Below are positions 5,480 to 28,123 of a DNA stretch of 64,000 bases, one piece after another; position 1 is the stretch's first letter; each line of letters starts with the position of its first letter. Under the pieces are notes generated by a model. That model searched no databases. It saw only the letters and a program-made list of their open reading frames with translations, and was not told where the DNA came from. The DNA is from Myxococcales bacterium (lineage in GTDB: Bacteria; Myxococcota_A; UBA9042): positions 1-64,000 of the forward strand of contig JAGSHB010000012.1 in NCBI GenBank assembly GCA_023954815.1, read 5' to 3'. The position numbers were made by a program, and so were the translations under genes.

Positions 5480-6334
5480 CTACCAGCCAGCGTAACCAGG
5501 AATCTCAGGCACGGACGAGAGCAGTTTCCCGCGAGGATGATCGCGCAGGAAATCCTTTTCCCAATGCGGGGTGAAGTCGTTGACGATGAGCCCGACGCGC
5601 GCACCCATCGCCAGGGGAAGGGCGAGATCCAGCTCGAAGATATCCCCGACCACCATCAACTCCGACCAATCCGCACCAGCCTCGTTGAGCAGCGCTTGTA
5701 GGCAGTCGGCATAGAGACGCCGACGCAGGAGCACAGGACGCCCCAGGCCCGGGAGCGCCATCGACTCGGGGACTTCGGTCCAATCCGGGTCGAGTACGTA
5801 TTTCTGCGCCGAACCGTGCACGCGATCGATCAACCACTGCAGAGGATTGTTCGCCTCGGCCTCACCGCCGAGGACGCGAATCTTGTTCTGCACGGCGTCG
5901 GTGTGACTGTTAGTGACCACGTGGACGGGCTTGTCTTCCATCGACAGCAGGGTCTCCCGCGCACCCTCGCGGAAGGCAACCAGGGTCTTGCGATAGTTGT
6001 ATTTGTAGAGCAGCCCCTCGAGGAGGCGGTTACGCTCCTCCTGCACGAGGAACGCGCCCGCTTCGTCGAAGATATGACGGGCGATCGGCATGATGCGCAG
6101 GTAGGGATCGACTGTCGCCGGAGCGACGATATGCCCGCCGAAGACCCAGCCATGCTCCTGCGGGTTGGCCTGCACCTCGGCTTCGAACGCGTCTGCAAGT
6201 CGGGTGACCTCGGCCAACTCCAACCCGGACAACAGGGCCACATCCTCTAGGCAGCCCTGATGATAGGGCGCGCCCTCCGCTTCCGCGTCGGTGACGGTGC
6301 CGTCGAAGTCTAAAACGAGTAGTCGAGTGGTCAT
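5480..6334 (-). CDS. HAD-superfamily hydrolase
   Basis: A 284-aa haloacid dehalogenase-fold phosphatase-like protein. LVLDFDGTVTDAE at the N-terminus gives motif I with both aspartates. VVTNSHTDAVQNK is motif II (Ser/Thr). VVGDIFELDLALPLAMGARVG is motif III/IV with the metal-binding Asp pair. The cap region between motifs I and II (about residues 20-130) is large and helical. The substrate is unknown. A strong AAGGAGGAG precedes the ATG. It converges with the methionine aminopeptidase gene, with only 7 bp between the stops, and its 5' side is the AT-rich GATC-studded region. Confidence 0.82.
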   Translation of the reverse strand: MTTRLLVLDFDGTVTDAEAEGAPYHQGCLEDVALLSGLELAEVTRLADAFEAEVQANPQEHGWVFGGHIVAPATVDPYLRIMPIARHIFDEAGAFLVQEERNRLLEGLLYKYNYRKTLVAFREGARETLLSMEDKPVHVVTNSHTDAVQNKIRVLGGEAEANNPLQWLIDRVHGSAQKYVLDPDWTEVPESMALPGLGRPVLLRRRLYADCLQALLNEAGADWSELMVVGDIFELDLALPLAMGARVGLIVNDFTPHWEKDFLRDHPRGKLLSSVPEIPGYAGW

Positions 6335-6404
6335 GAGATCTCCTCCTTAGCGGAGCATGCCTGCACATGCGCCCCTGGCATAGGGGGAAAACACCAGAAT
6401 TCAC

Positions 6405-6475
6405 GATCATCTCTGGCGATCGATTATGGATCAGATGTATGATCAATTTTGGATCACTATCGTGATATGCTGATC
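6405..6475. promoter_or_regulatory. AT-rich divergent promoter region with six evenly spaced GATC sites
   Basis: The gap between the HAD gene and the AAA+ regulator gene (6335-6610) contains an AT-rich core. GATC tetramers begin at 6405, 6418, 6429, 6441, 6452 and 6472, so spacings are 13, 11, 12, 11 and 20 bp, close to one helical turn each. Two lie in the palindromic context TGATCA, and TGATCAAT occurs at 6440 and 6471. This suggests an array of operator half-sites or a Dam-type methylation-sensitive region. No -10/-35 pair can be assigned with confidence. Confidence 0.4.
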
Positions 6476-6610
6476 AATAATCGTTCACACTAGGGAAGTC
6501 GTGGTTGCGCAGTATCACACCGGAGCGCGACGGTGCCCAACATGTAAAAGTCCTCTCCATTCGATTTGTGCGCGCCCCACTGGCACTCCCCCCCCCCTCT
6601 CGGAGCCTCC

Positions 6611-8215
6611 ATGTCGCTTTCGCAAGGTCCAGGCGACGGAAATCCGCCCGATGACCAACGGCCGCCGGGACAACTCTCGGCCAGCGATGCCCTCCTGTTT
6701 TCCTTGGGAGAGGCGGTCATCACCGAGATTTCGACGGGTGAGTTGCTGCGTCGCGTCGTGGATGTGCTCACTGAGTCCCTCGCTGCCGACCGCGGCACGA
6801 TCTACGTATTCGACGAAAAGAAAGATGAACTTCGCTCCGTAGCGGCCCACCTACCAGAGCTACCCACGATTCGCGTCCCGATTGGTCAGGGCGTCGCCGG
6901 CTTCGTGGCGCGCAGTCGACAACTGGTCAATATCGACCATGCCAATCGAGACCAACGCTTCTGGAACAACATCGACAAGCGCACCGGCTACGTCACGCGT
7001 TGCATGCTGGCGGCTCCTATCCAGCACAGAGACGGGACCCTGCTCGGTGTCCTACAGCTGCTCAACAAGCGCAACGGCACCTTTACCGGCGAGGATGAGG
7101 ACACGCTCCGACTCTTGTCAGAACAGCTCGCGCAGCTGCTGGAAAAGAGTACGGTCACGGCGACCCTTAAGCGAAGCGCCCTTCCTGAGCTGAGCACCGG
7201 TAGCCGCAAATCCAAACGAGGAAAACTGTCGACCCCAGAAGTCGATGTGGCCGGCGGGTTCAACCACATTATCGGTGCTGGCGCTCAGATCCAGAACGTC
7301 TTTCGCAGCATTCGGCGCGTCGCGCCTACCGATGCCACCGTGCTCGTCACCGGCGATTCGGGTACGGGTAAGGGGCGTGTTGCGCGGGCGCTCCACCACA
7401 ACTCACTGCGTGCGGACGGCACGTTCGTCCATGTTGACTGCGCGTCTTTGCCCGAAGGCGTCATGGAGCGCGAGCTTTTTGGCGCAGAACTGCGCTCAGA
7501 CTCCAAGCCGCCAACGATCAAGCCTGGTCGGGTCGAGTTGGCTGATGGCGGTACCCTCCTGCTCGATGAGGTGGCCGATTTACCCCTGTCGGCGCAGGGA
7601 AAATTGCTGGGTCTGCTCCAACACAAGACGTTCACGCGGGTGCGTGGCTCTACGACGTTGTCGGCTAATATTCGGGTGATTGCGACTACGAATCGCGACC
7701 TGCCGCGGCTCGTGAGCGATGGCCGGTTTCGCGAGGACCTCTACTATCGCCTGCGCGTCGTTCAGATCGAACTCCCGCCGCTGCGTAAACGCGGAATCCG
7801 TGACTTGCGGTTGCTGGTCGACCACTTCCTGGCCAATGCAGCGCGTCGCCATCGCCGGACAGCGCCTCAGATCAACGCTGAGGCGATGCGATGTCTCGTC
7901 AACTATTCCTGGCCCGGCAATGTTCGCGAGTTGGAAAACTGTATTGAATCAGCCGTGATTTTAGCCGACGAGGTCATCTACGCGCACAATCTCCCGCTTC
8001 CTCGCAGCGCCAACCCCCACGCCGGTGCCGATGGTGGCGATCTGGGCAGGCAGGGTGATCTATTCGCACAACAACCCACCATGAGCGAGCTTGAAGCGCG
8101 TTACATCAGCTACCTGCTGAGTCGTCACAAGGGTAATCGCTCGGCCATCGCCGGCGTGTTGGGCATCGGTCGCAACACCTTGCTTCGAAAGATTCGAGGC
8201 TACGGTCTGGAGTAG
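6611..8215 (+). CDS. GAF / AAA+ (bacterial enhancer-binding protein-like) / Fis-HTH transcription regulator lacking GAFTGA
   Basis: A 534-aa regulator. Residues ~30-190 form a GAF sensor domain (LAADRGTIYVFDEKKDELRS, GQGVAGFVARSR, CMLAAPI). Residues ~215-460 are a sigma54-activator type AAA+ domain with Walker A GDSGTGKG at 248-255, Walker B GGTLLLDE and the Arg finger segment FREDLYYRLR. The C-terminus has a Fis-type helix-turn-helix (NRSAIAGVLGIGRNTLLRKI). The L1 loop that contacts sigma54 should read GAFTGA after ELFG, but here the aligned residues 295-300 are RSDSKP without any gap. It may therefore act without sigma54. The ATG at 6611 has GGAG 5 nt upstream; a GTG at 6566 is in frame. 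Its last 16 bp overlap the convergent acyltransferase gene. Confidence 0.85.
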   Translation: MSLSQGPGDGNPPDDQRPPGQLSASDALLFSLGEAVITEISTGELLRRVVDVLTESLAADRGTIYVFDEKKDELRSVAAHLPELPTIRVPIGQGVAGFVARSRQLVNIDHANRDQRFWNNIDKRTGYVTRCMLAAPIQHRDGTLLGVLQLLNKRNGTFTGEDEDTLRLLSEQLAQLLEKSTVTATLKRSALPELSTGSRKSKRGKLSTPEVDVAGGFNHIIGAGAQIQNVFRSIRRVAPTDATVLVTGDSGTGKGRVARALHHNSLRADGTFVHVDCASLPEGVMERELFGAELRSDSKPPTIKPGRVELADGGTLLLDEVADLPLSAQGKLLGLLQHKTFTRVRGSTTLSANIRVIATTNRDLPRLVSDGRFREDLYYRLRVVQIELPPLRKRGIRDLRLLVDHFLANAARRHRRTAPQINAEAMRCLVNYSWPGNVRELENCIESAVILADEVIYAHNLPLPRSANPHAGADGGDLGRQGDLFAQQPTMSELEARYISYLLSRHKGNRSAIAGVLGIGRNTLLRKIRGYGLE

Positions 8216-9235: not shown

Positions 9236-9850
9236 CTAGTCACTGATGCTTGGCGTGCGCACACATCGAACAAAGTGCGGTTCGGACTTGAGCGCGTGCC
9301 CGGTTCCTCCGTTTTCAAAGTCGACGCCAAAGGCTTCATGGGCTGCGTTCGGCGCGTAGAGCGTCCGTGTCCAGAATGGTTTGGCTGGGGTCTGGGGGAA
9401 GGCCAGCGTGTCGATGGACGGCGTCGTGGTGAGGCTCAACACAAGCGACTCCAGTTCGTCTTTGTGCGGCAACTTCCAGTCGTCGTACGCGCCCACCACC
9501 AAACTGTCACAGTAGTCGATGGCGTCCTGCCACTTGCGCTTGGTGCTGCTGACCTTGCGCTGCCACATGAGCCCTGTGGCGCTGTCGAAGACCGCATCGC
9601 CCCCATCCTCCCAAACGAAGGAGCCACTTCTCCTATCGCCATAGAGGCTGGAGATGGAGCCGTCGCCATTCGCCCCGCCATCGCACCCCCCAGCACATTG
9701 CCCCGCCGCTTTTGCGCTGACGTCCTCGCCACATCCCGAGCCCCCGAGCCCACAGATGATGGCCAAACCCAACAACGTCGCCGTCGTCGCCGCGCGGCGG
9801 TGCGGGGTGAGCGTGCGTTGCGCCTTCCAAAGGCTCCATCCGATCGTCAT
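9236..9850 (-). CDS. DUF1566 (Lcl C-terminal domain) putative lipoprotein
   Basis: A 204-aa protein with a hydrophobic N-terminal segment (residues ~24-38) ending in GGSGC, a loose lipobox with Cys at 40, then a Gly/Cys-rich linker. Residues ~80-200 match the DUF1566/Lcl C-terminal pattern: FDSATGLMWQ, WQDAIDYCDSL, DWKLPHKDELESLV, FWTRTLY, FVRCVR. Such domains occur in secreted and fimbrial-associated proteins of unknown biochemical function. Probably exported to the periplasm or cell surface. The gap downstream (9067-9235) to plsC holds nothing recognisable. Confidence 0.75.
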   Translation of the reverse strand: MTIGWSLWKAQRTLTPHRRAATTATLLGLAIICGLGGSGCGEDVSAKAAGQCAGGCDGGANGDGSISSLYGDRRSGSFVWEDGGDAVFDSATGLMWQRKVSSTKRKWQDAIDYCDSLVVGAYDDWKLPHKDELESLVLSLTTTPSIDTLAFPQTPAKPFWTRTLYAPNAAHEAFGVDFENGGTGHALKSEPHFVRCVRTPSISD

Positions 9851-19542: not shown

Positions 19543-20478
19543 GTGGCGAGCGCTCTGCGGCCTTCTACGGCCCCTTCAAGCCGGACTGGGCATCCTTGGC
19601 TCTCCCTGATGGTGATGACAGTGCTGGCGGGCACCAGCGTGGCTTGCCAAGAGCAGCCGCTGGACGCCGCAGCCCCCAAATTGCCTATCCCCAATACCCT
19701 TCCCGCGCTCAATCCGACACCGGTCGCATGGTCGGTGGCGAGGCGCGCACGCATGCTGCACGAAGACGGCGAGAAGGCGTTGTTGACAGGGCAGTTCAAA
19801 GACGCGCTCAGCCACCTGACGGGTGCCGTTCAATTGGACCCCAGTCGCATTGAAGCCCGGCTTGCCCTGGCGCGGCTGTACGCAAAAGCCGGGCGGAGCA
19901 GCGTGTCGCTCACTTTGTTGGAGTCCATGGTCGCCAAGGACTGCGGCGGCTGCGTCGAGGCGCTGCAATTTGCGAAAGCCGATCCGCTCTTTGTACCCAT
20001 TTGGCAACATCGAAGAGGTCAGGCGCTGGCAGAGAAGCTGCCCACCGCGGCGCTGCCGTGGGAGCGCTGGGTTGAGCAGACCAGCCATAGCTTTGCCGAT
20101 GGCATTGGGCGTGAGCTGCCCAAGGTCGTTCATGCGCAGATCGGCTTCGAGTTGGTGCGCTCCTGCCCGGACTGTTCCAACCCCGATCGCCGCAAGCCGG
20201 AGCGACGTCGCCTCTTCGGTGCCCGTATTGCCGTCAAGCTGGCCAGTCGCTTCAACACGACGCAGAAGCGTTTCGGTGGGGTCAACTTGATTGTGGGCGC
20301 AGCGCATACGCGCAAAGGACGCTGCGTCATTTGGTCCGTTCCGAGCCCCGTTCCTGTCGGGCAAGCCGCGCTCAGAGAGCTCTGTTTTCGCCCGCTGACG
20401 CCGACCCGAGCAGCGCTGACGAAGATCGACGTGGTCTACGGCCAGAGCGTCGTGGACGCAGCTAAGAAATCTCCCTAA
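19543..20478 (+). CDS. TPR-type lipoprotein of unknown function
   Basis: A 311-aa protein starting (GTG) three bases after nrdB. MVMTVLAGTSVAC gives a lipobox with Cys about 35 residues from the GTG; the true start may be one of the ATG codons at 19609-19615, which would shorten the lead to a normal signal peptide. Residues ~70-140 contain two TPR-like helical repeats (AWSVARRARMLHEDGEKALL, GAVQLDPSRIEARLALARLYAKAG). The C-terminal part is Cys-containing (SCPDCSNPDRR) and of unknown fold. The link to nucleotide reduction is not obvious and may only be read-through. Confidence 0.6.
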   Translation: MASALRPSTAPSSRTGHPWLSLMVMTVLAGTSVACQEQPLDAAAPKLPIPNTLPALNPTPVAWSVARRARMLHEDGEKALLTGQFKDALSHLTGAVQLDPSRIEARLALARLYAKAGRSSVSLTLLESMVAKDCGGCVEALQFAKADPLFVPIWQHRRGQALAEKLPTAALPWERWVEQTSHSFADGIGRELPKVVHAQIGFELVRSCPDCSNPDRRKPERRRLFGARIAVKLASRFNTTQKRFGGVNLIVGAAHTRKGRCVIWSVPSPVPVGQAALRELCFRPLTPTRAALTKIDVVYGQSVVDAAKKSP

Positions 20479-20505: not shown

Positions 20506-21057
20506 CTACTCGCCTGGATTGACGGCCCGAAAGGTCGGATGCGTCTCGAGGACGCAGTTGTCCTTCGTCGCCTTTGGGTCGCCGCGTCCTTCGTAAACGT
20601 ACGTCGAATAGACGCCGTCGCAGTCCAGGTCACCGATGGCAGTGACCTTGTAGCGTGCATCACCGAAACTACCGCTGCCTTCGTAGCTATAGACAAAGCC
20701 TTGCGGCTCCTTGACCTCAATCTCCAGGGCGCGCCAGAGCAGGCGTTCCCAGTCTGTTTTGGCCGGGTCGCAGTGATTGCTCCCCTCGGCTCGGACGCGT
20801 TCATCACAGCAGCTCAGCGCTGGAGTTGAGCGGATCTCGCCGATTGGAAACTGGCATGGCGCCCGCTCAGCGCCGGTGCCCTGGCGTGGCTTGACGTAGT
20901 AGACGTGTGCGCGCTTCGCGATTCGGCCCAAGATGCTCATCGCGTCGGCGCTCTGACGCCTGCGCATCAACGCCGGCCATCCATAAGCAGCCGTAGCGAG
21001 CACCAGGACAAGCAACCCTGCAGCGGCAACCATCCATGTCTTGTTGTCACCCTTCAC
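20506..21057 (-). CDS. Type IV pilin-like protein without a canonical prepilin motif
   Basis: A 183-aa protein. One hydrophobic helix at residues ~9-28 is followed by a pattern seen in pilin-like proteins of this group: RRRQSADAMSILGRIAKRAHVYY, a Trp-Leu segment (DWERLLWRALEIEV), a YSYEGSGSFGDARYKVTAIGDLDCDG block and a Cys pair near the end. The usual G/FTLxE cleavage site with Glu at +5 is missing; the N-terminus is MKGDNKTWMVAAAG. It may be a membrane-anchored relative rather than a processed pilin. The start is GTG with GAGGAG 7 nt upstream. It is convergent with the TPR lipoprotein gene. Confidence 0.6.
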   Translation of the reverse strand: MKGDNKTWMVAAAGLLVLVLATAAYGWPALMRRRQSADAMSILGRIAKRAHVYYVKPRQGTGAERAPCQFPIGEIRSTPALSCCDERVRAEGSNHCDPAKTDWERLLWRALEIEVKEPQGFVYSYEGSGSFGDARYKVTAIGDLDCDGVYSTYVYEGRGDPKATKDNCVLETHPTFRAVNPGE

Positions 21058-21122
21058 CTTGGCTCCTCTTCATCGCACATCAACTGGGCAGTGCACTGAC
21101 TCCGCTATCCTAGAGACCCGGC

Positions 21123-21166
21123 CCAAAACGACAAGCGCCGCACCCGAAAGTCCGGATGCGGCGCTT
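21123..21166 (-). terminator. Rho-independent terminator for the four-repeat lipoprotein gene
   Basis: AAGCGCCGCA (21133-21142) and TGCGGCGCTT (21157-21166) form a perfect 10-bp GC-rich stem with a 14-base loop. Read on the minus strand it is followed by GTCGTTTT, a short U-run. It lies 37 bp past the stop of the gene ending at 21203. Confidence 0.75.
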
Positions 21167-21202
21167 GCCTGTTCGGCTGCTGCGGCGAACCACAGCGACG
21201 GA

Positions 21203-22843
21203 CTATTTGCCGGCGTACACGGCGATCAGCGTGCTGTAGGCGGCGCCCACAACTTTCAGCTTGATCTTGGCGCCGCGCTTGAGCTTGGCGAGCTCACCCT
21301 CGTTGGCCTTGGTGAAGTAGGCCTCGACGCGCGTGCCGCCGAAGCCAGCGGTCGCATCCTTGCAGGTGATGACGCCATGCTTGTCGCCGAGGTTCTTCTC
21401 GGTGCGAAGCAGCGCTTTTTTCTGCGAGCCGATGATCTTCAGCTTCGACACGAATGGCTTGAGGTTGATCTGGCAGGCGATGGCCTTGCCAGCGTACTTC
21501 TTAGGCGACAGGGCGATACGACGCCAATCGCTCTCGCCGCCGGGCTCCACGCCACCACCTTCGATACCGGTGTACACACCCACGAGGCGGTTCGAAACCA
21601 CGCCCCAGATGTTGAACTTGACCTTGGTGTGCGAGGCGATCTTGAGCAGCTCTTCCTTCTTGCCCTTTTCGAAGAACAGCTTGACCGTGACGCTACCGCC
21701 CGAGGCCTGCTTGCACATGAGCGACGCCTTGTAGTCGTCGGTCTTGGGCTTGATGAGTGCGATTGCCTTGCGGTCGAGCATGCCGATGGCGCTGGGCGTG
21801 GGCGATGTCAGGCTCTCGCAGGAGACCTCCTTGCCGATGTGGGGCTTGGGGTCGAGCAGGACGGCTTTCAGATCGCCAGCACCACCACCCTCGATGGCGC
21901 CGCTCTTGACCTCGCCGAACACGCCGACGAGCTGGTTACGCTGGAAACCCTTGATGGTTGCGGTGAACTTGGTCTCACGACCGAGCTTGAGCACCTCGCC
22001 AGCCTTGTCTTTCGGGAAGAAGAGGATGATGCCGACGCTGCCGCCGCGCTTGTCCTCGCAGCGCACGAGCGCCTTCTTGTCAGCCATGCCATCGCCAGCC
22101 TGCTCTGCGGCCTTCTTGTCGAAGCGCTGAACGGCCTTCGGCGTGACCGAGAGCTTGGAGTTGCAGGTGATGGTCTTGCCCTTGAGCTTCTCGGGCCAGA
22201 TGAGGCCGCTCATCAGATCCGGCGCATCCTTGTCGAACATGGATTTGCGCGGCGCCTTCACGATGCCTTTGTACAGACCGACAACCTGGCTGTAGTTCTT
22301 GCCCTTGATCTCGACGTTGACCTGCGTCTCACGGTCGATGTGCAGCAAGTCGCCCTTCGTGCCCTTGGGGAAGAAGGTCTGAACCGGCGTGCTCTTGAGG
22401 CCACCCTCTTTGGTGCGGCAGAAGAACGTCGTCCGACGATCGTCGACATCACCCGTGATCATCGCCAGGGCTTTCTTGTCGGAGAACGCGCTGATGGCCA
22501 TCGGGGCAGGCGACAGCAAGTTGCGGCAGAGCAAGGTCTTGCCCTTGAATGACTCGACGTCCTTCTTCACCGCGGCGAAGTCAGCAGCCTCTCCGGCCTT
22601 GACCAGCTTGGGCGGCGGCGGGGCGTCGTCGGCTTTGTCAGCTGCCTTGTCAGCGGTCTTGTCTGCGACCTTGTCAGCTGCCTTTTCGGCTGCTTTTGCG
22701 GCCTCCTTGGCACCTTCGGCCACTTTCTCTTTGATGTTCTCGACGCTCTCTTTGGCCTTACCGCAACCCGTCGAAAGGGCTGCCGCGGCACAGAGGGCCA
22801 TGGCGGGCGCGACGACACGGCGCCAACGCGAATAGTTCAGCAT
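21203..22843 (-). CDS. Lipoprotein with four tandem Cys-pair repeats
   Basis: A 546-aa lipoprotein (LSTGC27 lipobox). Residues 28-75 are a low-complexity helical stalk with AADK repeats. Four domains of roughly 100 aa follow (about 87-185, 205-310, 320-430 and 440-546). Each has GK-x-x-x-C near the start, an LSPxPxAI / DKKAL segment, a second Cys before a GG turn (FFCRTKEGG, VRCEDKRGG, LMCKQASGG, ITCKDATAGFGG), VxxFFPKG, ELLKI-xR-xT, and closes with LVGVYxGI. The spacing suggests small beta-barrels, perhaps OB-like, each closed by a disulfide. I do not recognise a named family. GAGGAT precedes the ATG, and it ends at a good terminator. Confidence 0.72.
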   Translation of the reverse strand: MLNYSRWRRVVAPAMALCAAAALSTGCGKAKESVENIKEKVAEGAKEAAKAAEKAADKVADKTADKAADKADDAPPPPKLVKAGEAADFAAVKKDVESFKGKTLLCRNLLSPAPMAISAFSDKKALAMITGDVDDRRTTFFCRTKEGGLKSTPVQTFFPKGTKGDLLHIDRETQVNVEIKGKNYSQVVGLYKGIVKAPRKSMFDKDAPDLMSGLIWPEKLKGKTITCNSKLSVTPKAVQRFDKKAAEQAGDGMADKKALVRCEDKRGGSVGIILFFPKDKAGEVLKLGRETKFTATIKGFQRNQLVGVFGEVKSGAIEGGGAGDLKAVLLDPKPHIGKEVSCESLTSPTPSAIGMLDRKAIALIKPKTDDYKASLMCKQASGGSVTVKLFFEKGKKEELLKIASHTKVKFNIWGVVSNRLVGVYTGIEGGGVEPGGESDWRRIALSPKKYAGKAIACQINLKPFVSKLKIIGSQKKALLRTEKNLGDKHGVITCKDATAGFGGTRVEAYFTKANEGELAKLKRGAKIKLKVVGAAYSTLIAVYAGK

Positions 22844-23241: not shown

Positions 23242-24405
23242 ATGGGTGAGCGGGCGAGTGCGTGGATCCTTCCCAACTCGGAGAAGGAAAATAAGGGCGG
23301 CAACGACATTCAGATCCAAGAGATCACCCTGCCAGATGTCGGCGAGGACGAGTGCCTTGTCGAGCCGATTTACGGCTGCTGGGAAGGCAACATGTCCCAC
23401 GCCATCGACCGTAAGCCTGTCGATGTAGCGCAGCAACGGGGCGAAGACTTCGTCGTCTTGGGCAACGCCGGCGTCGTTCGCGTGCTGCGGACCGGTGCAA
23501 ACGTGTCGACCGTGACCGAGGGCCAGCACGCGCTGCTGTTCTGCAATGGTGTCTGGGATAAGTGGGGCTACCCTATCAAGATCTTCGGCTATGACGCACC
23601 GGGCTCCATCGGCCTGCTCTCGAAACGGACGGTGTTGCACGAAAAGCAGGTCATCCCGATCCCCGACAACAGCCGCTACACCCTCAAGCAGTGGGCGGCG
23701 TTCTCCTTGCGCTACATCACGGCTTGGTCCAACTGGCAGCAGGCTTACGGCTGCTGGCGCGTGCAAATGACCCAAGAGGACTGCCCTTCCCCCTACGTCT
23801 GGGGGTGGGGTGGCGGCGTCAGCTGGGCGGAGTTGACCCTCGCGCGCTTCTCCGGTGCCAAAGTCACGATGATCAGTGGTAATCCCAAACGCTTGCGCGC
23901 CATCCGTCGTGCCGGCATGAACGCCGTTGACCGTCGCGCGTTCCCCGATTTGGACTATGACTCAGCGCGCTACCGCGGCGACAAGGAGTTCAAGACGCGC
24001 TACCTGGAGAGCGAGCGCGTCTTCCTGCGGACCATTGAAGAGCAGACCGACGGCTTGGGGGTCAGCATCTTCCTCGACTATGTCGGCTCACCGGTGACCC
24101 GGGCGACGATCAAGGCCCTGTCTCGCCAGGGTGTCGTCGCCACAGCTGGCTGGAAGGAGGGCATGAAGATCCAGCATATTCGTGCCATTGAGTGCATCGA
24201 GCGGCACACCCACGTGCACACGCACTACGCACGCTATACCCAAGGCCGAGCGGCGGTGCAATTCGCCGAGAACACCGGGTGGATGCCGGACGATACCGTC
24301 GACATGGACGTGTACGACTTCCAGGAGATCCCCAAGTTGCACGAGGACTACAACTCGGGCCACACCCACTCCTACTTTCCGATTTTCGAGATCAACAAGC
24401 CTTGA
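23242..24405 (+). CDS. MDR-superfamily oxidoreductase, substrate unknown
   Basis: A 387-aa medium-chain dehydrogenase/reductase. The cofactor-binding half contains YVWGWGGGVSWAELTLARFSGAKVTMISGN, which fits the glycine-rich NAD(P)H loop; VWGxxGG and the following IS-x-N-x-K-R resemble crotonyl-CoA carboxylase/reductase. The N-terminal half lacks the usual catalytic zinc ligands and the NYNxxW block of Ccr. Length is shorter than Ccr (about 430). It sits 120 bp upstream of an Mcd-like dehydrogenase and an Ecm-like mutase, so it may supply the enoyl-CoA reductase step, but this is inference from position. AGGAGC lies 7 nt before the ATG. Confidence 0.65.
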   Translation: MGERASAWILPNSEKENKGGNDIQIQEITLPDVGEDECLVEPIYGCWEGNMSHAIDRKPVDVAQQRGEDFVVLGNAGVVRVLRTGANVSTVTEGQHALLFCNGVWDKWGYPIKIFGYDAPGSIGLLSKRTVLHEKQVIPIPDNSRYTLKQWAAFSLRYITAWSNWQQAYGCWRVQMTQEDCPSPYVWGWGGGVSWAELTLARFSGAKVTMISGNPKRLRAIRRAGMNAVDRRAFPDLDYDSARYRGDKEFKTRYLESERVFLRTIEEQTDGLGVSIFLDYVGSPVTRATIKALSRQGVVATAGWKEGMKIQHIRAIECIERHTHVHTHYARYTQGRAAVQFAENTGWMPDDTVDMDVYDFQEIPKLHEDYNSGHTHSYFPIFEINKP

Positions 24406-24525
24406 TTGAGACCGCAGTCGTTGGTCACCGCCCCTCATCAGTGGGGCGGTGACCCCTGCTCGCCGCAAGCGGTGCCCTGAGCGCCAATATTCGCATCACA
24501 ATCTGCTGTCATGGAGTGCCAACCG

Positions 24526-26175
24526 ATGTCTACCGACTCCGCCATCCACGCGGCGCTCAGCCAATGCGAAAGGGCCACCCGCCAACTCATCACGCAGCTC
24601 GCCAAAGCGGTCGAAGACCCCGCAAAACCGGGCCGTCCGTCGACTGCGCTGCTCCATGGGCTCGGTGAAGAGGCCTTCATCCTGGCGCGATTGGTCGCCG
24701 AGGTGCAGGCCGCAGAGATCGTCCTCGGTGCCTTTGCCAAACTGCCGGGCGATGCGCCGCAACGACGCTTGGCTCGCTATGCGGCAGCGCGGGTAGTGCG
24801 CTCTGTGGAGGCGACGCTGGTGCTGGAGTGCCCGACCTGGTGCGGCGGCTCTGACACACGGGTGGAGTTGGATGCGGACACGCGTGCGGCGGTCCTCGCA
24901 GCCAGTGATTCCGCCGTTGTCGCTGGGCTGTCGGACTGGCTCCTGGAGGGCGGCGCCTCTGCCCCGACCTCGTACGCACTCAGCGATGATCATGAGGATA
25001 TTCGCTCCCTGTTTCGTGATTTCGCCGACGGCCAAGTGGCGCCGCTGGCCGAACATATCCACCGCCACGATGCGCTGATCCCGGAAGATCTCATCGCAGC
25101 CTACGGTGAACTGGGCGCGCTAGGCATCACCATCCCCGACGACTACGGCGGCCAGTTCATCGACCATCGCTCCATGGCGCTGGCCACCGAGGAGCTGTCA
25201 CGGGCATCGCTAGGGGCGGGCGGCTCGGTCATCACGCGGCCCGAGATCGCGAGCAAGGCCCTGCTGAAAGGCGGCACGGAAGCGCAAAAGAAGTACTGGC
25301 TTCCCAAGATCGCGAGCGGCAAGGAGATCGTCTCCATCGCTGTCACCGAACCCAACGCGGGCTCCGATGTGGCACGGCTGCGCGTCACGGCCAAACAGGT
25401 CGACGGCGGGTGGGTCATCAACGGCGAAAAGACGTGGTGCACCTTCGCCGGCCGGGCATCCGTCATGCTGGTGCTCGCGCGCACTGGGTCCGTCGAAGAT
25501 CGTGCTCGTGGCCTCACGTTGTTCCTGGTGCCCAAACCAGCGACCAAAGCGCCCGACGACGACCACGCTTTTTCCCACACAGACGGTAAGGGCGGCAGCA
25601 TCTCAGGGCGCGCCATCCCGACGGTCGGCTACCGCGGCATGCACAGCTTCACCGTGTTCTTTGAGAATTGGTTCGTCGCCGACGACCTGCGCATCGGCGA
25701 GCCCGGCGCCGGATTTGGCCTGCAGATGGCTGGCTTCGCAGGCGGCCGAATTCAGACGGCTGCCCGTGCTGTTGGCGTCATGGAGGCAGCCCTGCGCAGC
25801 GCCGTCGCCTACTGCATTGAACGCAAGGTGTTCGGCAGCGCCCTGGCCGACCTGCCGCTGGTACGACGCAAGCTGGTCGACATGGCCGCACGCATCGCGC
25901 TGAGCCGGCAGATGACGTACGCCGTATGCGATGAGATGGACGAAGGCGCCGGCCAAATGGAAGCCAGTTTGGTGAAGCTGCTGGCCTGCCGCGATGCCGA
26001 GACCGTGACCAGAGAAGCCATGCAGCTGCACGGCGGCATGGGCTACAGCGAGGAGTATGCGGTCAGCCGCTACTGGCAAGACGCGCGCGTGTTGTCGATC
26101 TTCGAGGGAGCCGAGGAAGTGCTCGCCATCTTGGTCATCACCCGCAGCCTGCTCCGCGACGCCCTGGCTGGGTAG
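24526..26175 (+). CDS. mcd: Acyl-CoA dehydrogenase, probable (2S)-methylsuccinyl-CoA dehydrogenase
   Basis: A 549-aa flavoprotein. Residues ~1-150 are an extra helical region absent from ordinary ~380-aa acyl-CoA dehydrogenases; Mcd of the ethylmalonyl-CoA pathway has this same extension and length. The catalytic part follows: ITIPDDYGG, VTEPNAGSDVARLR, INGEKTWCTFAGR, GYRGMHSFTVFF, GRIQTAARAVGVMEAA, and LHGGMGYSEEYAVSRYWQDAR with the catalytic Glu527 in IFEGAEE. Mcd would oxidise methylsuccinyl-CoA to mesaconyl-CoA. GGAG lies 8 nt before the ATG at 24526. The ecm-like gene follows after 28 bp. A general branched-chain acyl-CoA dehydrogenase is the alternative. Confidence 0.75.
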   Translation: MSTDSAIHAALSQCERATRQLITQLAKAVEDPAKPGRPSTALLHGLGEEAFILARLVAEVQAAEIVLGAFAKLPGDAPQRRLARYAAARVVRSVEATLVLECPTWCGGSDTRVELDADTRAAVLAASDSAVVAGLSDWLLEGGASAPTSYALSDDHEDIRSLFRDFADGQVAPLAEHIHRHDALIPEDLIAAYGELGALGITIPDDYGGQFIDHRSMALATEELSRASLGAGGSVITRPEIASKALLKGGTEAQKKYWLPKIASGKEIVSIAVTEPNAGSDVARLRVTAKQVDGGWVINGEKTWCTFAGRASVMLVLARTGSVEDRARGLTLFLVPKPATKAPDDDHAFSHTDGKGGSISGRAIPTVGYRGMHSFTVFFENWFVADDLRIGEPGAGFGLQMAGFAGGRIQTAARAVGVMEAALRSAVAYCIERKVFGSALADLPLVRRKLVDMAARIALSRQMTYAVCDEMDEGAGQMEASLVKLLACRDAETVTREAMQLHGGMGYSEEYAVSRYWQDARVLSIFEGAEEVLAILVITRSLLRDALAG

Positions 26176-26203
26176 CGCTCCCGTCCCCCATCCGGAGAAT
26201 CGA

Positions 26204-28123
26204 ATGACCGCTATGAAAAAGCGCAGCCCGTGGATCATTCGCACGTACGCTGGTTTTGGCGATGCGACTGAGAGTAATCAGCGTTTTCGCGACAATCTGG
26301 CTCGTGGTCAGCGCGGATTGTCAGTCGCTTTTGACCTACCGACCCAATGCGGCTTGGACGCAGATGATCCGCTCGCACGCGGTGAGGTCGGTCAGACGGG
26401 CGTGTCCGTCGCTCACCTGGGTGACATGCGGGACTTGTTCGACGAATTGGACCTGTCGGCCGTCAACACCTCGCTGACCATTAACGCCACGGCCCCCTGG
26501 CTCTACGCGATGTATCTGGCCCTGGCCGACGAACGCGGTGTGCCGCGGCAGGTGCTGCGCGGCACCACGCAAAACGACCTGCTCAAGGAATTCGTCGCGC
26601 GTGGGACCTACGTCTTTAGCCCCGACGTGTCTTTTCGACTGAGCACCGACTTGGTCGTCGCCGCCATGACCCACACGCCCAAGTGGAATCCGACCAATTG
26701 CTGCGGTTACCACCTGATGGAATCAGGCGCTGGCCCCGAAGAAGAGGTCGGCTACGCCTTGCTCGGTGCGCTCTTTGTCTTGGAAGCGGTGCGGCCCAAG
26801 CTCGACGACGCGGCCTTCGAACGGGTCGTCAACGCTATCAGCTTCTTCATCAACAGCGGCATCGAGCTCGTGCCCGAGATCGCCAAGGTCCGGGCCTACG
26901 CCAAGCTGTGGCCCGACCTCTGTGAGGAGCGCTATGGTCTGCGCCCCAGATGGCGGGCGGGCTGCCAGGTACGGTCGCTGTCGCTCGCCGCCAAGCAGCC
27001 AGAGATCAACATCGTTCGCATCGCGCTATCGGCTATGCCGGTGCTAATCAGCGCCAATGCCCGCGTGGGCGCTTTGCAACTGCCAGGATTCCGCGAGGCG
27101 CTGGGGCTGCCCGACGAGGCCGAGCAGGTCCTGTCGCTGCGTACCCAACAGGTGTGGATGCATGAGACGGGGATCGCGGACTACCCGGATATTTTCGAAG
27201 GTAGCGTGGTCATCGAGGGGGAGACGTCGCGGATCGAACAGGCTGCCCGCGACATCATCGACGCTGGCCTGACCCAGGGATACACGGCCACCATCGAAGG
27301 CCTCGCTGGCTTGCTGAGTGAACGGATGGCCCAATGGCAGCAAGGGATCGAGTCCGGTACGCAGGTCATGGTCGGGGTCAACCGCTTTGGTGAGGCGCTT
27401 CCGGTGGCGAGAGAGTCCGCCGCCGCCATGCCAACTCCCTCGGACGAAATCGAGCGCGCACGCATAGCTGAGCTGCAATCCTGGCGCGCAGCCCGAGACG
27501 AAAGCGCCTGGTCGGCTGCCCGGGAGACCCTCATCGCCGCCGCCCGCGACGGCAGCAGCCTCATCGAACCCTCCGTGCAGTTCGCCAAAGCAGGTGGCAC
27601 CACCGGTGAGTGGACCAAGGCCTTGCATACCGTGTTTGGCCCCAGATATGCGGCGCCGTTGGGCGTCAGCGGAAGCTCGCTCGGCAGCGCACCGACCCGT
27701 GGCCATGAAGCCGGGCGACGTCGGCGCGTTCTACTCGCCAAGGCTGGCCTCGATGGTCACGTCAACGCACTCCGCCTGCTCGCGGTCGCGCTACGTCAGG
27801 CTGGTTTTGAGGTCGTCTACGCTGGCCCAGCCCAAACACCGGACGCCATCGCTCACGCAGCCGTCTCTGAAGCCGTCGACGTTATTGGCGTGTCGAGTCT
27901 CTCCGGCGCGCATCTGTGGGTCGCCGGCGCCCTGCAGGCCGCCCTGTCAGCGCGCAATGCCGAGGACATTCCGGTCGTCATGGGGGGAATTTTGCCGCCA
28001 GACGACCACGCTGCCCTGACGGATAGCGGCGTTCGCGCCCTCTTTGGCCCTGGGACGCCGCTCCCGGAGATCATCGCTGCCCTCACCGAGCTCTCAGGCG
28101 CAGCGACCAGCCCGATCGGGTAG
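26204..28123 (+). CDS. ecm: B12-dependent acyl-CoA mutase, probable ethylmalonyl-CoA mutase
   Basis: A 639-aa adenosylcobalamin enzyme with catalytic barrel and B12 domain on one chain. The N-terminus (SPWIIRTYAGFGDA, GLSVAFDLPTQCG, ARGEVGQTGVSVAHLGDMR, TINATAPWLYAMYLALA) follows Ecm/MeaA rather than methylmalonyl-CoA mutase, which has INAPA here and a longer N-terminus. The C-terminal domain has the B12-binding DxHxxG region as DGHVNA (D517, H519), with Ala522 in place of Gly, then SSLSG and MGGILPP. It would convert ethylmalonyl-CoA to methylsuccinyl-CoA, the substrate of the upstream gene product. GGAG lies 6 nt before the ATG. Confidence 0.8.
   Translation: MTAMKKRSPWIIRTYAGFGDATESNQRFRDNLARGQRGLSVAFDLPTQCGLDADDPLARGEVGQTGVSVAHLGDMRDLFDELDLSAVNTSLTINATAPWLYAMYLALADERGVPRQVLRGTTQNDLLKEFVARGTYVFSPDVSFRLSTDLVVAAMTHTPKWNPTNCCGYHLMESGAGPEEEVGYALLGALFVLEAVRPKLDDAAFERVVNAISFFINSGIELVPEIAKVRAYAKLWPDLCEERYGLRPRWRAGCQVRSLSLAAKQPEINIVRIALSAMPVLISANARVGALQLPGFREALGLPDEAEQVLSLRTQQVWMHETGIADYPDIFEGSVVIEGETSRIEQAARDIIDAGLTQGYTATIEGLAGLLSERMAQWQQGIESGTQVMVGVNRFGEALPVARESAAAMPTPSDEIERARIAELQSWRAARDESAWSAARETLIAAARDGSSLIEPSVQFAKAGGTTGEWTKALHTVFGPRYAAPLGVSGSSLGSAPTRGHEAGRRRRVLLAKAGLDGHVNALRLLAVALRQAGFEVVYAGPAQTPDAIAHAAVSEAVDVIGVSSLSGAHLWVAGALQAALSARNAEDIPVVMGGILPPDDHAALTDSGVRALFGPGTPLPEIIAALTELSGAATSPIG

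Follow-up and report, generated by a model that had tools for sequence, protein, structure and literature searches.

A myxobacterial lipoprotein with four predicted OB-fold repeats, each carrying a conserved pair of cysteines

One gene in the window (the whole 64,000 nucleotide stretch of Myxococcales DNA that was analysed) encodes a predicted lipoprotein with four repeats of a domain that, judging from the model of one of them, almost certainly adopts the OB fold, a barrel of five strands in which a helix separates strand 3 from strand 4, and in which two cysteines are invariant. The domain is novel as a sequence family, its fold is one already known, and the OB-repeat family that it defines is unnamed and narrowly distributed. 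The reading that we moderately favour is of an envelope-anchored array of four disulfide-stapled OB domains that would hold a surface polymer or a filament component.

An earlier note on this DNA had described a lipoprotein of four repeats on a helical stalk, and most of that description stands. The signal peptide is followed by a lipobox, LSTGC at residues 23-27, that ends in Cys27, and "GCGK" is conserved in all five proteins of the same kind (the A-type, see below); by signal peptide and lipobox the product is classed as a bacterial lipoprotein, its lipidation being predicted. The stalk held up in part, a helix is predicted over about residues 30-60 and the pLDDT there falls below 50. The four repeats of ~100 residues are clear, all six pairwise alignments between them lie 13.8-31.9 standard deviations above the mean of 500 shuffles, none of which scored as high. 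The motifs noted for them have fared unevenly: the GKxxxC start is present in every repeat and the second Cys precedes GG in three, with AG in repeat 4, whilst FFPKG is exact in repeat 1 only (FFPKD, FFEKG and YFTKA elsewhere) and the closing LVGVYxGI has drifted to VVGLYKGI, LVGVFGEV, LVGVYTGI and LIAVYAGK in repeats 1 to 4 respectively.

Comparison with two orthologues (83% and 81% identity) gave 65/46/179 and 81/43/211 differences per codon position and dN/dS of about 0.11/0.62 and 0.12/0.84, and on these alignments the lipoprotein reading frame is under purifying selection. An overlapping ORF on the + strand (21041-22552) was set aside as a shadow because it is the - strand frame that this pattern of selection backs.

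Table 1. Positions in the window of the lipoprotein gene, its parts and its conserved neighbours
Feature	Positions	Strand	Remarks
Four-OB lipoprotein CDS, A-type	21203..22843	-	546 aa, one gene
Lipoprotein signal peptide to lipobox Cys27 (LSTGC), predicted	22763..22843	-	sequence; GCGK conservation
Lys/Ala-rich stalk and Pro linker	22583..22762	-	helix predicted, low confidence
Repeat 1, predicted OB-fold domain	22250..22579	-	Cys106 (22526-22528), Cys142 (22418-22420)
Repeat 2, predicted OB-fold domain	21905..22216	-	Cys227 (22163-22165), Cys262 (22058-22060)
Repeat 3, predicted OB-fold domain	21560..21871	-	Cys342 (21818-21820), Cys377 (21713-21715); modelled alone, pLDDT 89.7
Repeat 4, predicted OB-fold domain	21206..21526	-	Cys457 (21473-21475), Cys494 (21362-21364)
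Pilin-like membrane protein without prepilin motif	20506..21057	-	adjoins lipoprotein gene in 5/5 A-type loci
TPR protein, lipobox-like start, convergent neighbour	19543..20478	+	conserved in 5/5 A-type loci
Terminator-like hairpin between lipoprotein and pilin-like genes	21130..21169	-	folding energy

Fold, cysteines and relation to named families

The suggestion that the repeat is a small, OB-like beta-domain was borne out by a structural model of repeat 3 and by the fold searches made with it. The model, built from 12 rows (the window, L016 and L017), is a confident one (pLDDT in Table 1, pTM 0.81) of an OB-type barrel with the element order H-E-E-H-E-E-H-E-E. The OB folds listed by Foldseek begin at E 0.011 and none reaches 0.001; the best VIA-align match was PolC (3f2c, Z 8.5, rmsd 2.4, 85 aligned) and the OB lipoprotein 3f1z aligned at Z 7.2 (rmsd 3.1, 90 aligned), where three chains among the 998 aligned have Z >= 8 and a Z under 8 can reflect a common arrangement. 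Both listings are mostly OB folds, largely the OB domains of SSB, PriB, polymerases and tRNA synthetases, and the recognised PDB matches, which we take to be OB domains, cover most of the model. A full-length model built from three rows is of low confidence (mean pLDDT 67.8, pTM 0.48; the other four models reached 27.8-32.0), in it all four repeats show much the same strand order, and in each a Cys lies in strand 1 and a second beside the end of strand 2. Matches of TAL effectors to the A2 profile (PDB sequences, E 7e-5 to 0.0017) were rejected as an artefact of summed short helical repeats, because no stretch passed singly and the lipoprotein model is mainly beta.

The cysteines are the most conserved feature of the domain. 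Among 57 hits to the repeat, taken from the window and from 14 other stretches, the strand 1 Cys is invariant in 47/47 and the strand 2 Cys in 50/50 of the rows with a letter at that position, a count that leans towards its own motif as the rows came from an iterated profile that contained them; the next most conserved positions are glycines (41/45 and 46/50). Mature A-type chains have exactly nine cysteines in all five cases, the lipid Cys and two per repeat, and the related B-type proteins have eight after the transmembrane helix in each of the four frames examined, again two per repeat. Their invariance, their even number and their strand positions make it very likely that the two cysteines of each repeat form a disulfide.

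No known family had been recognised in the repeat, and indeed no Pfam, NCBIfam or PHROGs model reached its cut-off for the lipoprotein, nor did a search of PDB sequences with the single lipoprotein give anything at threshold. The closest named family, also among the OB families, is tRNA_anti-like (PF12869), which the earlier note gave as an example of a known domain whose confident match to each repeat would speak against a new one; no such match was obtained. The whole protein scores only E 0.99 and 9.4 bits against it, with a cut-off of 23.5, and hmmscan listed one of 23 single repeats (E 0.039). An alignment by hhalign of the repeat profile with a PF12869 profile, itself built from 21 of the 36 PF12869 matches listed, scored 24.1 (probability 23%) and was in register from strand 3 through the helix to strand 4; none of 100 column shuffles reached that score (maximum 13.1) and the reversed profile gave 10.2, a control in which homology and a shared OB architecture look the same. 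A second pair of alignments (15 PF12869 rows and a 23-row repeat profile) matched at the same place with a probability of 17%. These results, together with 3f1z, which a PF12869-like profile finds at E 1.4e-5 and which is among the fold neighbours of repeat 3, would suit a true but very divergent member of PF12869 that the Pfam model misses. We think this doubtful, although of the alternatives that we considered it is the least so, given the low profile probabilities, the hmmscan scores far under the cut-off, a local match that spans 31-32 columns with a global alignment of 0.8%, and the Cys pair, which is no feature of the aligned PF12869 rows. By sequence the repeat domain is perhaps a remote cousin of PF12869 and not a member.

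With PF12869 and its relative of known structure, KPN03535 (3f1z), the repeats share the OB barrel, and several of the PF12869 rows examined have export or lipoprotein-like starts; the differences are that 3f1z has one OB domain where there are four here, and that the aligned PF12869 rows lack Cys in strands 1 and 2. The OB domains of SSB, PriB and the tRNA-synthetase anticodon-binding region have the same barrel (Z about 7-8), yet identity to them is 2-15% among the matches listed and there is no sequence match; these proteins are cytoplasmic or nuclear nucleic-acid binders. The C-terminal OB domain of NlpE and the BOF proteins (of the YgiW/YdeI kind) are extracytoplasmic OB folds of the envelope, as is proposed here. 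They have a single OB domain per chain, and neither family is among the Pfam or NCBIfam matches listed for the lipoprotein or its repeats. In the open-access literature we found no description of the family, of a four-OB lipoprotein or of the link to Pel described below.

Distribution, two forms and their neighbours

A full-length query matched nine of 89 relatives, and the repeat profile found the domain in nine of the 52 genomes of the class, all within the window's own family (9/22, against 0/30 in the others). Over the phylum the profile matched 11 of 377 genomes, the two beyond the family both weakly. One of these (G253, L048) looks a spurious basic frame. The other (G187; L049, L064) looks real: a 309-aa frame with a lipobox at 5827-6753 (-) of L064, from another family of the phylum, with two repeats that bear the same Cys pairs, and it is possible that this two-repeat form is the older form of the domain. 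No relative was found on plasmids or viral contigs, and a mobile or viral origin was dropped on that ground.

Within the family there are two main forms. The A-type (the window, G002, G003, G009 and G014) is lipid-anchored, and the B-type (G002, G003, G005, G014, G016, G018 and G021) has an N-terminal transmembrane helix in the four frames checked. B-type copies are complete in L057, L058 and L059; those of G005 and G014 are cut or split, G003 has its copy in two frames, and an in-frame stop interrupts the copy of G018. A third kind, with a single repeat, occurs in L063. In a tree of 41 of the 57 repeats (those of at least 85 residues; two fall in no group and single groups have moderate support) the repeats group by position across A and B with three label changes, which is the minimum, where the labels were assigned by hand from the order along the chain; shuffled labels gave a mean of 21.9 and none of 200 shuffles was as low. 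As the repeats cluster by position over both types the four-domain set is older than the split between A and B and has not been homogenised, and we read the four repeats, on this tree, as one old, non-interchangeable array.

The order of genes is the same at all five A-type loci, the lipoprotein gene, a pilin-like gene downstream and then a TPR gene on the opposite strand, and this holds with lipoproteins that are 30-84% identical. Two pilins encoded by the same genome are homologues of the pilin-like protein of the window (E 3.6e-26 and 1.0e-25), and at least one of them starts with the canonical GFTLIEL. The prepilin peptidase motif G/FTLIE at the N-terminus is the mark of type IV pilins, and it is absent from the pilin-like protein of the window, whose N-terminus reads MKGDNKTWMVAAAGLL, and from five aligned orthologues; the protein has lost the cleavage motif and retained its pilin homology and conserved Cys. 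An operon of the two genes is doubtful in the window because a strong terminator-like hairpin separates them (folding energy of the 66 bases from 21115 to 21180, -42.3 kcal/mol, z -5.5); the genes lie closer together in L053 and L054. Nor are they an obligate pair: the pilin-like group is present in 20 of the 22 family genomes (E 1.6e-58 or better), 15 of which have no A-type gene, and at 11 of those 15 loci (L108-L112, L114-L119) a Cys-rich frame lies upstream instead. These frames encode a repeat protein with 42-74 Cys in DDGDxCTxxDxC-like units. No pilin-like neighbour was found at the B-type loci.

On the other side of the A-type gene in the window is a row of genes (23242-28123, +) that presumably encode crotonyl-CoA reductase-like, acyl-CoA dehydrogenase-like and B12 mutase-like proteins, and L051, L052 and L054 have the same row beside their A-type gene. 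Elsewhere the window encodes a small protein (9236-9850, -) that matches the Lcl C-terminal domain family (PF07603, E 1.2e-28).

The B-type gene has a different neighbour. In three genomes (L059, L060 and L061) it lies tail to tail with the gene for PelG, which is found in 17 of the 52 class genomes and in six of the 22 of the window's family. All six carry a B-type gene, which is present in seven of the 22 (p 9.4e-5 when counted by genome and 0.0048 when counted by genus, with sets entered by hand and genomes that are not independent of one another). The Pel cluster and the B-type gene lie on different contigs in G005, G016 and G021, and the stretch of the cluster that was examined held no OB repeat, G018 has a B-type gene and no PelG, and 11 PelG genomes in other families of the class have no OB-repeat domain. 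The Pel-type cluster itself is divergent (L060 3-10353, L135, L134, L136), with two TPR genes, a PelD-like GAF protein, a PelE-like protein, PelF and PelG. Within one family the B-type sister and a divergent version of the Pel polysaccharide secretion system (PelD, E, F and G) occur together, and no Pel component is known to us to contain an OB array. The A-type, unlike the B-type, is not linked to Pel; PelG is present in three of five A-type genomes (p 0.10), and both PelG and the B-type gene are absent from the genome to which the window belongs.

A proposed role and its alternatives

It would seem that the protein leaves the cytoplasm as a lipoprotein and that its lipid anchors it, with a flexible stalk as the tether, and its location in the envelope is very probable. 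Each domain would consist of an OB barrel of five strands, with an additional helix separating strands 1 and 2. The invariant strand 1 Cys is probably linked by a cross-strand disulfide to the Cys close to where strand 2 ends, as would fit an oxidising extracytoplasmic location. One old series of duplications would have given four domains with position-specific identities; these identities have been kept, and therefore each domain is likely to touch a different part of a single extended partner, which the open faces of the barrels would grip. The partner is most likely to be a cell-surface polymer or a component of a surface filament, such as an exopolysaccharide or the neighbouring pilin-like protein, and we propose this tentatively, as somewhat short of an even chance. 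Three links to the envelope surface count towards it: the pilin-like neighbour at A-type loci, PelG beside the B-type gene, and the co-occurrence of B-type and PelG. More generally the repeat domain would work like an extracytoplasmic OB binding domain, both ligand and function being inferred.

The fold neighbours noted above are largely nucleic-acid binders, and an extracytoplasmic lipoprotein that holds DNA or RNA with its basic OB domains, comparable to KPN03535, SSB or RPA-like proteins, has to be weighed. The repeats of the window are indeed basic (net charge +6 to +16, pI 9.5-10.2; mature chain +36), and for KPN03535, a Klebsiella OB lipoprotein, DNA binding was argued to be likely from a pI of 9.4 and a basic patch in its structure report (PMC2954213). 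However the charge is not conserved, being -4 in the mature A-type protein of L053 and -1, -2 and -2 after the transmembrane helix in the B-types of L055, L057 and L058, whereas the cysteines and the four-domain array are retained in these relatives, and a disulfide-stapled protein of the envelope would meet little nucleic acid beyond matrix DNA. As the charge is not conserved we rejected nucleic-acid binding as the main reading and regard it as improbable as a conserved function.

The cysteines themselves raise the case of NlpE, which performs redox sensing, and the disulfides could in the same way sense the state of the envelope and report it to a sensor kinase or a neighbour in the membrane. 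The same structure report finds 3f1z structurally similar to NlpE and also likens it to the BOF proteins (PMC2954213), and there are two cysteines per domain, all invariant. This very lack of variation over 47 and 50 rows fits structural disulfides better than switches, and no kinase gene is common to the neighbours compared at A-type loci, so that a signalling or redox role has in our view just as slim a chance. A narrower role in the assembly or anchoring of type IV pili, in which the lipoprotein would hold the pilin-like protein, itself non-cleavable, and act jointly with it, would account for a neighbour that is kept at five of five A-type loci and is homologous to pilins; against it stand the many pilin-like loci without an A-type gene, most of them with the Cys-rich frame in its place, and the B-type loci without a pilin-like gene, and we consider it unlikely, if less so than the signalling or nucleic-acid readings. 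Holding a surface polymer or filament component is the reading that we retain.

A bolder form of this proposal, which we offer as speculation that is rather unlikely to hold in full, is that tetra-OB arrays are an undescribed envelope module for the handling of polymers, the B-type being an accessory to the divergent Pel exporter that would grip the emerging chain with four non-equivalent domains and the A-type its counterpart at the outer layer, where it may hold polymer or a filament of the pilus kind.

What these data provide is a sequence signature, a Cys in strand 1, another where strand 2 ends and a fixed set of four, for an OB family that is unnamed in the copies of Pfam, NCBIfam and PHROGs that were searched. 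They also provide an example of a repeat array that has long been frozen with position-specific domains instead of being homogenised, and a lead to follow, an envelope OB array whose sister form follows a Pel exporter inside one bacterial family.
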